DNA of 64,000 bases, taken from positions 1 to 64,000 of the forward strand of contig JAHDOI010000026.1 of assembly GCA_018434945.1 (NCBI GenBank). Direction: 5' to 3'. Below the pieces are notes generated by a model. It saw only the letters and a program-made list of their open reading frames with translations, ran no database searches and had not been told where the DNA came from. This DNA is from Selenomonadales bacterium (GTDB taxonomy: Bacteria > Bacillota > Negativicutes > Sporomusales > UBA7701). Of the stretch, positions 1 to 63,590 are shown one piece after another. The translations under genes were made by a program, and so were the position numbers. Each line of letters starts with the position of its first letter. Within the stretch, counting starts at the first letter, position 1.

Positions 1-80
1 CATACCGAACACGGCAGTTAAGCCCCTATACGCCGAAAGTACTTGGCTGGCGACGGCCTGGGAGGATAGGTAGCCGCTGA
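1..80 (+). rRNA. 5S ribosomal RNA, 3' portion
   Basis: The first 80 bases match the conserved 3' two thirds of 5S rRNA: the CCGAACACGGCAGTTAAGCCC block, the GTACTTGG segment and the GGGAGGATAGG closing segment are all visible. The 5' end lies outside the window, so this is the tail of an rRNA operon. An intrinsic terminator follows directly. Confidence 0.93.
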
Positions 81-90
81 TTCAGACAAA

Positions 91-22101: not shown

Positions 22102-23490
22102 TTAGGCCTTGTCGAGCGTGCGTGCCAGCAGAGTAGCGATGGGACCCTCGCCGGTTAGCGTGGGGGTGCCGGATTCGTGGCTAAGGCGGGCGAGGATGGA
22201 ATACACCTGGGGATTCTCCGGGGGAATATGGCTGGTGGAGGTTTCCGAATAGGCATTGACATGGCGGGTGCCTTCATCCGGCGGCAGGATGCGACCTGGA
22301 CCGCCGACACAGCCGCCCTTGCAGGCCATGCCCTCGACAAAGTTGGCCGCGAAGTCGCCCCCTTTCAATTCCTCAAGCAGCTTTTGGCAGTCGGGGATGC
22401 CGTCGACCTGCCGGGCTGCGAATTTTTCCGCCCGCCTGGGGATGAGTTTGGCGAGAGTTGCGGCCACGGCGGCGCTTACGCCCCCTGTGCGGCCGTAAAC
22501 CCGACCGCCCCAGGACGCCTGGGCGTTCTCTTCATCCGGTTGGTCGGAAGGGTCGATTCCGGTGGCCTCGAAGATCGCAGCAAGCTCCTGGAATGTTAGG
22601 ACGAAATCAACGGCGCCGCTGAGGCCGGGGAGGACGGCTTCGGATTTTTTCGCGACGCAGGGACCGATGAATACCACACTGGCGTCAGGCTCGAACGCCT
22701 TTATGACCCGCGCTGAGGCCACCATCGGCGAGACGGACGGGGAAATATGGGCCAGGAGTTCCGGAAACCGGTTTTCGATGAGCTTTATCCACACAGGGCA
22801 GCAGCAGCTCGTGATGAGAAAGTCCTGTTCCGTCTTCACATGTTCGTCATACTCGAAGCATTCCTTCATCGTGATGAGGTCGGCGTAGAGTGCGGTTTCC
22901 ACCATTTCGGCGAAGCCGATCTTCAGCAGGGCCGACCGCAGCTTGCCGGGGGTGACGTTTGGGCCGAACTGCCCGGCGAAGGCAGGGGCGACAGAAGCGT
23001 ATACCGGTGTGTCATTCTGACGGAGGAGATTAATAAGGGGAACAAAATTGGATTTTTCGGCCAGCGCGCCGAAAGAGCACGCTTCGACGCAGTGCCCCTC
23101 GCCGAGGCACCGGTCGTGGTCGATCCGCACCCGGTCGAACTCGTCGCGGCTGATGGCTCCTACGGGGCAGACCCGCTGGCAGTTTCTGTCGTCGACGGCG
23201 CAGCTCTGGCAGGCGCCGGGGTTAGCAATTACGAACGGCTCACTGGCCATGCCCATCAGGGCTTCGGCGTCATGGTCGCCGATTACCGTATCGCTGTCGT
23301 GGGGCGCGAGGCCCATGGCGATGCGGATCTGGTTGGCGACCTGGCGGCGGGTGACGTGATCGGAAAACTCGCCATGGACCATGCGGCAGATATCCTCACG
23401 CCGCTCGAACAGCTTGCCTTCCCAGGCCGCCTTGGCAACCTGGTAGAGAATGCGGGGTCTTATGTTGAGGGCGGTGGAGCTTGTTGGCAT
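22102..23490 (-). CDS. [FeFe] hydrogenase catalytic-type protein
   Basis: A 462-residue iron-only hydrogenase-family protein. H-cluster motifs are visible: TSCCCPVW (228-235, L1, with one Cys more than usual), IGPCVAKKSEA (275-285, L2) and GMACKGGCVGGPG (near 395, L3). Upstream is a ferredoxin-like domain with Cys94, 97, 104, 108 and Cys128, 134, 138; the middle Cys of the second cluster is Glu131. The N-terminal 80 residues are a helical extension. The GPC.AKK and MAC.GGC forms differ from prototypic group A enzymes and fit a group B-like or sensory type. ATG at 23490 is preferred since GAGGTGA lies 6 bases upstream; a GTG at 23499 overlaps that site. Maturation genes are not in the window. 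Confidence 0.9.
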   Translation of the reverse strand: MPTSSTALNIRPRILYQVAKAAWEGKLFERREDICRMVHGEFSDHVTRRQVANQIRIAMGLAPHDSDTVIGDHDAEALMGMASEPFVIANPGACQSCAVDDRNCQRVCPVGAISRDEFDRVRIDHDRCLGEGHCVEACSFGALAEKSNFVPLINLLRQNDTPVYASVAPAFAGQFGPNVTPGKLRSALLKIGFAEMVETALYADLITMKECFEYDEHVKTEQDFLITSCCCPVWIKLIENRFPELLAHISPSVSPMVASARVIKAFEPDASVVFIGPCVAKKSEAVLPGLSGAVDFVLTFQELAAIFEATGIDPSDQPDEENAQASWGGRVYGRTGGVSAAVAATLAKLIPRRAEKFAARQVDGIPDCQKLLEELKGGDFAANFVEGMACKGGCVGGPGRILPPDEGTRHVNAYSETSTSHIPPENPQVYSILARLSHESGTPTLTGEGPIATLLARTLDKA

Positions 23491-23516
23491 GTCAATCACC
23501 TCGGTAAAACGATTTG

Positions 23517-23527
23517 TAGTATTATTA
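23517..23527. promoter_or_regulatory. AT-rich palindrome near the hydrogenase start
   Basis: TAGTATTATTA, reading TAATA-A-TACTA on the minus strand, is one arm mismatch away from the TAATACTATTA palindrome seen before the superoxide reductase and moaA genes. Confidence 0.25.
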
Positions 23528-23604
23528 GACTATTTATGCCAAGCTTACTCGTTTTCCTGTTTTTTTCCCCGGTTCCTGGATGTGGGGCGAAGCCGGATGT
23601 AATG

Positions 23605-23640
23605 AAAAGGTGTTGATACCAAAGTTATCAACACGCTTTT
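23605..23640 (-). terminator. hairpin with flanking T run in the hydrogenase leader
   Basis: Arms TGTTGATA/TATCAACA (23611-23618, 23626-23633) with flanking AAAA and TTTT runs form an intrinsic-terminator-like hairpin within the hydrogenase leader on the minus strand. It could be the off-switch of an upstream sensor. Confidence 0.45.
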
Positions 23641-23735
23641 CCCGTAACCGTATCAGCTTTCTTGCCCCCTGGATGCAAGGGATAGTTTCTTTGAAGGCTG
23701 GGCGGATCGCCACCGGCGTGGGCCTCGCGCTGGAT
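23641..23735 (-). promoter_or_regulatory. candidate structured leader RNA before the hydrogenase gene
   Basis: About 95 nt of GC-rich sequence sit in an otherwise AT-rich 390-bp gap, between a probable promoter and the terminator-like hairpin. Small stems are visible (GGCG/CGCC around 23700-23713, CTTGC/GCAAG around 23662-23680). No known riboswitch consensus was matched; it is a candidate cis-regulatory RNA. Confidence 0.35.
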
Positions 23736-23737
23736 AA

Positions 23738-23753
23738 TGTATACGTGTATACA
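23738..23753. promoter_or_regulatory. 16-bp palindromic operator candidate
   Basis: TGTATAC-GT-GTATACA is a perfect 7-bp inverted repeat and coincides with a plausible minus-strand -10 region of the hydrogenase promoter. A related palindrome ATGTATACAT (22093-22102) lies at the other end of the hydrogenase gene. The form suits a GntR- or LacI-like dimer, but no regulator is identified. Confidence 0.45.
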
Positions 23754-23842
23754 AAAATTATTGCACAGAACAAAAAACAAAGCAAGAGAAAAATTATAAA
23801 ATTCAGAATAAGACATAAAACATCAGTCGGTCTCGCAACAGA

Positions 23843-23867
23843 AAACCGCGAGTTACGCTCGCGGTTT
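23843..23867 (-). terminator. opp operon terminator
   Basis: A perfect 10-bp stem (23843-23852 with 23858-23867, 5-base loop) lies 16 bp beyond the oppF stop; the T run on the minus strand is short. Confidence 0.7.
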
Positions 23868-23882
23868 AATCGTACAAGCTGT

Positions 23883-24860
23883 TCAGCCGTTTACGAGATG
23901 GCAGGCAACGAAACGGTCGCCGTGGGCCAGAAGTCGCGGGATTTCGCATCGGCAGCGGTCAAAGGCCCGGGGACAGCGGGTATTGAATTTGCAGCCGGGC
24001 GGTGGGTTGAGAGGGCTGGGAACGTCGCCGTGTAAAACTATCCGGCGGCGCCCATTTTCCACCAGGGGGTCGGGGATTGGGATGGCCGACAGGAGTGCCT
24101 GGGTATATGGGTGCAGCGGGTTGGCGTACAGCTCGTCGACCGGTGCGACTTCGGCCAGTGTGCCGAGATACATGACGGCGACCCGCCTGCTTATATGCTT
24201 TATCATCGAAAGATCGTGGGCGACGAAGAGATAGGTGAGACCGTATTCCGTCTGTAAATCCTGCAACAGATTGACGACCTGGGCCTGTATCGATACGTCC
24301 AGGGCGGAGATGGGTTCGTCGCAGACGAGGAATTCCGGTCCGGCGGCTAGCGCCCTGGCGATGCCGACCCGCTGGCGCTGACCGCCGCTGAACTCGTGCG
24401 GGAAGCGGCTGGCGTGTTCGGGACTGAGGCCGACCTGACCCAGCAGGTGCATGATACGTTCCCGACGTTCGTTTCCGGCCGCGAGGCCATGGATGTCAAG
24501 CGGTTCGCCGACGATATCGCCGACGGTCATGCGGGGATTTAGCGAGGCGTAGGGGTCCTGGAAGATCATCTGGATGCGGCGGCGGTATTGGTTGCCTTCC
24601 GGTCCCGAAAAGGCGGCGTGAACGTCCTTCCCACGGAAAAGGACCTCGCCGGCGGTGGGCTTGTATAGGCCCACAAGGGTGCGGGCGACGGTCGATTTTC
24701 CGCAGCCGGTCTCGCCCACGAGCCCTAGCGTTTCCCCGGCCTCGACGGTGAAACTGACATCCTCGACCGCTTTGACGGTCGCGCGGGGTCGGCCGAGCAT
24801 GGTGCGGGCAGTAACGAAAAATTTGCTGAGGTTCTTGACTTCGATCAGGGGCGTGCTCAT
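23883..24860 (-). CDS. oppF: oligopeptide ABC transporter ATP-binding protein OppF
   Basis: Cytoplasmic ATPase, 325 residues, energising peptide import with OppD. Walker [11 protein letters not shown], signature [15 protein letters not shown] and Walker [15 protein letters not shown] are present; the C-terminal oligopeptide domain has the CPRAFDRC Cys motif. Its ATG overlaps the oppD stop by 4 bp. It is the last gene of oppABCDF. Confidence 0.93.
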
Positions 24861-63304: not shown

Positions 63305-63328
63305 AACTATCAACAACACATAAAAATG

Positions 63329-63590
63329 CGATGAGCGGGAGAAGTAAGCCAGAAGCGTTTCCCAGAGAGCCGGGGGGTGGTGCGACCCGGCAAACGCGCT
63401 GACCGAAATACACCCGCGAGCAGCAGGTCGAAAGCATTGCGAGTAGACCGGGCCGGAGCGCCACCGTTAACACAGGCTAGGGTATCGGACATCAGTCCCG
63501 TACCTGAAGAGAGCGGCTTGCCACAAGCAAGCAGGGTGGTACCACGGGTAAATAAACCCGTCCCTGATTTCAGGGGCGGGTCTTTTATAT
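63329..63590 (+). ncRNA. T-box leader, tyrosine (UAC) specifier, with terminator
   Basis: A full T-box riboswitch. Stem I has GAGCGGG...GAAGTAAG at its 5' side, the AGAGAGCCGG/CCCGGC distal hairpin and CCCGC closing (63413-63417). The specifier loop GAAATACA places UAC (63409-63411) as the codon, so uncharged tRNA-Tyr is the expected ligand. The T-box core AGGGTGGTACCACGGG is at 63533-63548. The terminator stem (63556-63566 with 63571-63581) is followed by CTTTTATATTTT. Uncharged tRNA-Tyr should allow readthrough into aroF, matching DAHP synthase in aromatic amino acid synthesis. Confidence 0.93.

Follow-up and report, generated by a model that had tools for sequence, protein, structure and literature searches.

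The gap in front of the [FeFe] hydrogenase gene of this Selenomonadales genome is best read as a two-promoter control region, made up of a repressor-controlled promoter (P1) and a second promoter (P2), with an operator that is probably common to the gene for pyruvate:ferredoxin oxidoreductase (PFOR). We assign this model as a whole a probability of about 60%. Group-B [FeFe] hydrogenases, which the encoded protein resembles most, are common and little studied. An operator in common with PFOR would connect pyruvate oxidation with the hydrogen metabolism of Sporomusa-like bacteria in a concrete way that can be tested, and it comes with a candidate regulator.

Layout of the hydrogenase upstream region

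The window, a stretch of 64,000 nucleotides, encoded the hydrogenase on its minus strand. The gap (23491-23882) that an earlier note on the same DNA had described lies exactly between the end of an ABC-transporter ATPase gene (23883-24860, minus strand) and the hydrogenase start codon at 23490 (Table 1). Against TIGR04105, the model for monomeric group-B enzymes, the hydrogenase scored 362.9 bits, which is under the cut-off of 450 set for this model. For comparison we used a genus sample of five genomes, G000 (the source of the window) to G004, and an order set of 28 genomes. The five genus leaders gave a 366-column alignment in which 31% of the columns were invariant. The probable terminator of the upstream transporter unit was absent from the list produced by the terminator scan. 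Between this terminator and P1 lies a TATTCTGAATTTT block (23827-23795, minus strand) with 13 of 33 columns invariant in the five genomes, possibly a further binding site. Elsewhere the window carried a T-box leader (63322-63568, plus strand; 119.7 bits at a gathering score of 93) and a 5S rRNA (1-82, plus strand) truncated by the window start.

Table 1. Features of the hydrogenase upstream region, with positions in the window.
Feature	Position	Strand	Description
[FeFe] hydrogenase gene	22102..23490	-	Fe_hyd_lg_C domain; ATG 23490-23488; nearest model monomeric group-B
Ribosome-binding site and start codon	23488..23502	-	GAGGTGAT 23502-23495, ATG 23490-23488; read from sequence; aligned in five genomes
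Putative promoter P2	23532..23560	-	ACAGGAAAA 23560-23552, 11 nt, GGCATAAAT 23540-23532; SigH-like -35, deviating -10
Terminator-like hairpin	23604..23634	-	GTGTTGATA-7-TATCAACAC with tail CTTTTC; present in G000 and G002-G004, lost in G001
Pre-hairpin segment	23636..23661	-	Contains CTGATA (23656-23651), which may pair alternatively with the hairpin 3' arm
GC-rich stretch	23662..23735	-	Poorly conserved spacer; mean pairwise identity 0.46; folding z +0.90 in the window genome
Operator	23738..23753	.	TGTATACACGTATACA; 15 of 16 columns invariant in five genomes; spans the predicted P1 start site
Promoter P1	23757..23785	-	-35 TTGCTT 23785-23780, 17 nt, -10 AATAAT 23762-23757; aligned with the boxes of G001-G004
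Probable terminator, upstream ABC-transporter unit	23843..23867	-	AAACCGCGAG-5-CTCGCGGTTT, then TC; direct sequence reading

A conserved operator at the predicted first promoter

The palindrome TGTATAC-2-GTATACA, which had been placed on the likely -10, was found exactly as described at 23753-23738. Its placement had to be corrected, as it begins 3 nt past the -10 hexamer. In the relatives G001-G004 the boxes of P1 read TTGACT or TTGACA, 17-18 nt, and CATAAT; they end 3 nt before the palindrome, which therefore covers the predicted start site. Judged by reading, the window's own P1 boxes (TTGCTT-17-AATAAT) are weaker and degenerate compared with those of the relatives, and a sigma-70 scan of 23400-24000 came back without a promoter.

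All five genus genomes carried the palindrome in the equivalent position before the orthologous hydrogenase gene, and across them conservation in the region is highest over its 16 bases, with a mean pairwise identity of 0.97 for the block. A 16-column window of equal invariance appeared in 1 of 20,000 shuffles of the column order. The exact palindrome occurred once in the entire window genome, against 0.003 occurrences predicted from base composition. Among the 28 order genomes six contained it, with one copy apiece: in the five genus genomes it stood before the hydrogenase, in G005 next to a gene for biotin carboxylase. Within the window it was the sole match at up to three mismatches, yet this cut-off is loose enough that 35 of 100 shuffles gave at least one match. 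Neither the 16-bp pattern at up to two mismatches (23 places versus 20 for the reversed control in the five genus genomes) nor its 14-bp core at up to one mismatch (28 versus 26 in the six family genomes) was enriched. As the 16-bp counts show no enrichment, the case for an operator rests on position and conservation. Conservation gives good support to the reading of the palindrome as a real operator: all but one of its 16 columns are invariant in the five genus genomes, all five have a related site at PFOR, and a 15-bp form stands at the hydrogenase of G007, a member of another family.

Related sites at PFOR and other genes

A genome pattern search returned a second site that recurred at one gene, PFOR, in G000, G001, G002, and G004. 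Upstream of the PFOR gene (POR_N domain) all five genus genomes carried a copy of the palindrome with one or two mismatches. When a centre of one or two bases and up to two mismatches were allowed, sites were present at 5 of 5 genus PFOR loci and at 2 of 25 PFOR loci elsewhere (G007 and G027). With permuted half-sites the mean at the non-genus loci was 0.11, and 2 of 150 permutations reached two. The palindrome is very probably the operator of a regulon shared with PFOR, as these recurring upstream copies suggest. In the named-genome set, none of the 23 hydrogenase upstream regions from other genera contained the site at up to three mismatches. The orthologue in G007 (320 of 461 aligned residues identical) has the 15-bp form, TGTATTCGGTATACA, upstream; by reading, the operator lies there between a -35 and a -10, unlike in the genus, where it follows the -10.

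The 15-bp form, which has a one-base centre, was found at up to one mismatch in 46 places versus 18 for the reversed pattern in the 28 genomes, and in 26 versus 2 in G000-G007. We inspected 20 regions around listed sites, with domains checked for one or two members per gene group. The site stands before the gene for the acetolactate-synthase small subunit (G000, G003, G004), a lactate-racemase-like gene and glutamate dehydrogenases (each in G000, G001, G003, G004), a fumarase/aspartase-type lyase (G009), and transporters (G006), while three of the 20 regions (in G000, G003, and G004) had no clear target gene. The racemase and glutamate dehydrogenase sites have TGTATAATGTATACA in common and might be the target of a different regulator. 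In G005 a carboxylase-type gene downstream of the hydrogenase is preceded by TTGCCC-17-TAAAAT and then immediately by AGTATACTGTATACA, the same layout as at P1. The carboxylase gene of G005 had no match at E<=1e-120 in the five genus genomes, and at the second carboxylase-type gene, the one adjoining the hydrogenase, the genus genomes showed half-sites at most, with 4-6 mismatches in the closest cases.

The combination of PFOR and hydrogenase also brings to mind Rex, an NADH-sensing repressor, of which the palindrome could be a divergent site. According to passages of one report, Rex of Clostridium thermocellum senses NADH/NAD+ and has predicted or measured sites at PFOR and at an [FeFe] hydrogenase operon (PMC8457756). 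However, the Rex consensus TTGTTA-6-TAAC, as given in a passage of PMC5886521, does not match TGTATAC-2-GTATACA, and the canonical Rex pattern was not enriched in G000 at up to three mismatches (66 matches versus 81 reversed, with 4 matches at two mismatches). Given the consensus mismatch and the lack of genome-wide enrichment in G000, we rejected Rex on motif and regard it as a very unlikely regulator of this operator.

A GntR/FCD protein as candidate regulator

The best candidate for the regulator is a protein of the GntR/FCD family whose own gene, in four order genomes, is preceded by the 15-bp palindrome. Two of these, G006 and G021, have it about 56 bp upstream of the GntR/FCD gene, within a longer inverted repeat. 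Relatives of this gene in G005 and G023 (68-83% identity in the comparisons made) have the palindrome in the same arrangement, with a weaker flanking repeat in G023. At the loci L244 (1546-1604), L250 (1601-1659), and L246 (1569-1627) the palindrome before the GntR/FCD genes centres the longer inverted repeat, in which 23-25 of 29 positions are symmetric; the outer arms vary between genomes yet still pair.

Atu1419, a GntR/FCD (VanR-type) repressor of Agrobacterium fabrum, binds ATGTATACAT according to passages of PMC7797058, and through its GTATAC units our operator fits the GT...AC signature given there for the family. The candidate regulator of G005 has GntR and FCD domains and matches the sequence of the Atu1419 structure (6z74) at 1.1e-11; its best match was 3c7j at 6.4e-31. 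Because of the palindrome before GntR/FCD genes and the matches to the site and structure of Atu1419, this group was chosen as the candidate. None of 14 regions around 15-bp sites in G000, G001, G003, and G004 (17 are listed for the genus) lies before a candidate GntR/FCD gene, and at four PFOR loci no regulator gene was recognised among open reading frames of at least 110 aa. Our literature search found no publication on a GntR regulon of Negativicutes with a binding site at a hydrogenase gene, which does not by itself prove that such a regulon is unpublished.

Another GntR/FCD protein (locus L002) is encoded in the window genome itself and could be the regulator instead. At E<=1e-40 it was present in all six family genomes and in 9 of the 28 order genomes, and GTATACATGTAT lies about 270-280 bp upstream of its gene in 6 of 6 family genomes. 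This site, however, runs into the start of a small, divergently oriented reading frame (YMYT...) that is itself conserved, and the conservation of the site may be coding; moreover, G007 has the site at both hydrogenase and PFOR but lacks the L002 protein at 1e-40. We demoted the L002 protein because its site overlaps a coding start. It appears unlikely to be the regulator, and the GntR/FCD protein with the palindrome before its own gene was kept as candidate.

The small YMYT... frame is conserved at L002 (about 1420-1600), L111-L115, and L117, where it is divergent from the GntR/FCD gene, and the start codons form the GTATACATGTAT palindrome. A related perfect palindrome, GGTATACCGGTATACC, was seen at L121 (G002:C76:116562-116577), where a GntR/FCD-like protein is encoded too; this protein matches that of L002 weakly (E 1e-10).

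The leader between the two predicted promoters

The earlier note had taken the order of elements in the gap for the layout of a riboswitch or protein-dependent attenuator. An undescribed riboswitch class would suit the position of the GC-rich leader between a promoter and a terminator-like hairpin and its length of about 95 nt. The GC-rich stretch had been described as folded; in all five genus genomes it folded no better than shuffles, with z-values from -0.92 in G004 to +1.54 in G002 (-0.58 in G001, +0.15 in G003, and +0.90 in G000), and the 261-nt leader as a whole was also ordinary compared with shuffles (z = -0.34). Conservation in relatives, which had been named as a check on the folded stretch, was poor, at 46% mean pairwise identity. 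No Rfam match was obtained on the minus strand, even at E 10, and no second full-length copy of the leader was found in the five genus genomes. For its low conservation, shuffle-like folding, and the lack of an Rfam match and of a second copy we rejected the riboswitch as the leading reading and hold it to be extremely improbable. The hydrogenase leader thereby drops off the list of orphan riboswitch candidates. A repeated or mobile element was rejected as well, since beyond the orthologous gaps only short matches were found in the five genus genomes (best 33 nt, E 0.0029).

The part of the proposed layout that stood is the terminator-like hairpin, with arms and loop at 23634-23610, although its T tract is weak in the window, merely CTTTTC. 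Seven T follow the hairpin in G003 and six in G002, and the tracts of G000 and G004 are weak. Among the five genus genomes mean pairwise identity was 0.61 for the hairpin with its tail and 0.32 for the spacer after it. The pre-hairpin segment was identical at 25 of 26 positions in G004, 21 in G002, 17 in G003, and 13 in G001. Folding of the stretch together with the hairpin gave z-values of -1.00 in G000, -5.13 in G004, -0.20 in G001, -1.86 in G003, and +0.13 in G002, so that only G004 is strong. The hairpin could truncate transcripts from P1.

Such truncation might be regulated, if P1 transcripts form the terminator unless a protein, a small molecule, or a ribosome favours the alternative CTGATA pairing that the direct repeat CTGATA/GTTGATA permits; P1 expression would in that case be adjusted once initiation has taken place. 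In four of five genomes conservation is higher in the hairpin and the 26 nt before it than in the remaining leader, the runs of seven and six T follow the hairpin, and the stretch with the hairpin folds well in G004 and to some extent in G003. The alternative pairing forms in 87.5% of the cells for four sequences, but it consists mostly of invariant letters and has no kept double change. Covariation of the stems had been suggested as a check: on the five-sequence alignment 5 of 28 predicted pairs showed a kept double change, yet the covariation term was unfavourable (+1.68), and none of the 15 consensus pairs changed on both sides in the four hairpin-bearing sequences. The weak tracts of G000 and G004 also argue against a regulated attenuator, as does G001, which has lost the hairpin although its protein is nearer in sequence than those of G003 and G002. 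In addition, the gap in G007 is short, about 190-200 bp. By eye it contains the operator, a P2-like AAAGGATTT element, and an evident hairpin at the end of the transporter gene, and the GC-rich leader is missing. Regulated attenuation seems distinctly unlikely on this evidence, and we prefer the two-promoter model, in which the hairpin, as a weak intrinsic terminator, would trim or insulate the transcripts of P1 ahead of P2, and the GC-rich stretch would be a spacer.

A putative second promoter

Downstream of the hairpin come the AT-rich segment and the start codon, in the order that had been described. We add that this segment shows conservation of its own and looks like a promoter. The block 23566-23526 had a mean pairwise identity of 0.81 in the five genus genomes. 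The -35 element of P2 matches the SigH pattern RNAGGAWWW, which was found with full or near-full score in 19 of 28 orthologue upstream regions, versus a shuffle mean of 5.6 and maximum of 11; in one of them (L018) the copy scored differs from the aligned copy. The -10 element departs from the pattern RNNGAATWW, as it has no GAAT, and the majority over 25 aligned upstream regions is approximately GGCAAAT. The strict SigH pattern had 53 matches in G000 versus 0 for the reversed pattern; none lay in the window at a 12-nt spacer, and none at P2 among the matches listed for 11-12 nt. Because P2 lacks GAAT we name it SigH-like only, and we regard the AT-rich segment as a conserved putative promoter that resembles the SigH type. 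SigH-type sequences were also present just upstream of the PFOR operator in G000, G001, G002, and G004. No publication was found in our literature search on a sigma H regulon joining PFOR and hydrogenase in Clostridia, although this does not prove that none exists.

Proposed model and comparison with known systems

In the proposed model P1 is a housekeeping-type promoter whose transcripts would start inside the 16-bp operator, so that a dimeric repressor bound there would block P1. PFOR makes the reduced ferredoxin of which a hydrogenase disposes, and closely related operators at both genes would thus lead to their joint derepression during pyruvate oxidation. The repressor would most likely be the GntR/FCD-family candidate, for which pyruvate or a related acid would be a sensible ligand. 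P2, which is near the start codon, has a SigH-like -35, and is recognisable in many Sporomusaceae orthologues, would provide expression independent of the operator. What sequence comparison shows is that operator and P2 are conserved, that PFOR has the operator too, and that the spacer is poorly conserved; the start sites, the repression, the regulator with its ligand, the sigma factor, and termination are inferred.

More widely, an undescribed GntR/FCD repressor might govern the pyruvate-ferredoxin-hydrogen branch in several families of the order, layered on SigH-type promoters. We put this forward tentatively, as a possible extension on the doubtful side. If true, the branch would comprise PFOR and the group-B-like [FeFe] hydrogenase, joined in some genomes by carboxylase subunits, acetolactate synthase, lactate racemase, and glutamate dehydrogenase, and the repressor would play the part for a carbon signal that Rex plays for NADH.

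As in the Rex regulon of Clostridium thermocellum, in so far as passages of PMC8457756 describe it, a single regulator is proposed here for PFOR and [FeFe] hydrogenase; the operator sequence differs from that of Rex, and Rex-like sites are not enriched in our case. With Atu1419, as described in passages of PMC7797058, the proposed system has in common a GTATAC-type palindrome close to promoter elements. Unlike the one 10-bp palindrome of Atu1419, the operator here consists of two GTATAC units with a centre of one or two bases, and the target genes and the ligand may differ. In Sporomusa sphaeroides KIAC, SigH motifs (AGGA/GAAT) account for 16.1% of the assigned promoter motifs, that of pfor included, according to passages of PMC12456013; the same passages mention one group-B hydrogenase, without a SigH promoter for it. 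P2 of the hydrogenase is like these SigH promoters in its AGGA-type -35 and unlike them in having no GAAT at the -10, and the SigH motif of pfor in that strain corresponds to the SigH-type sequence beside the operator of the genus PFOR.
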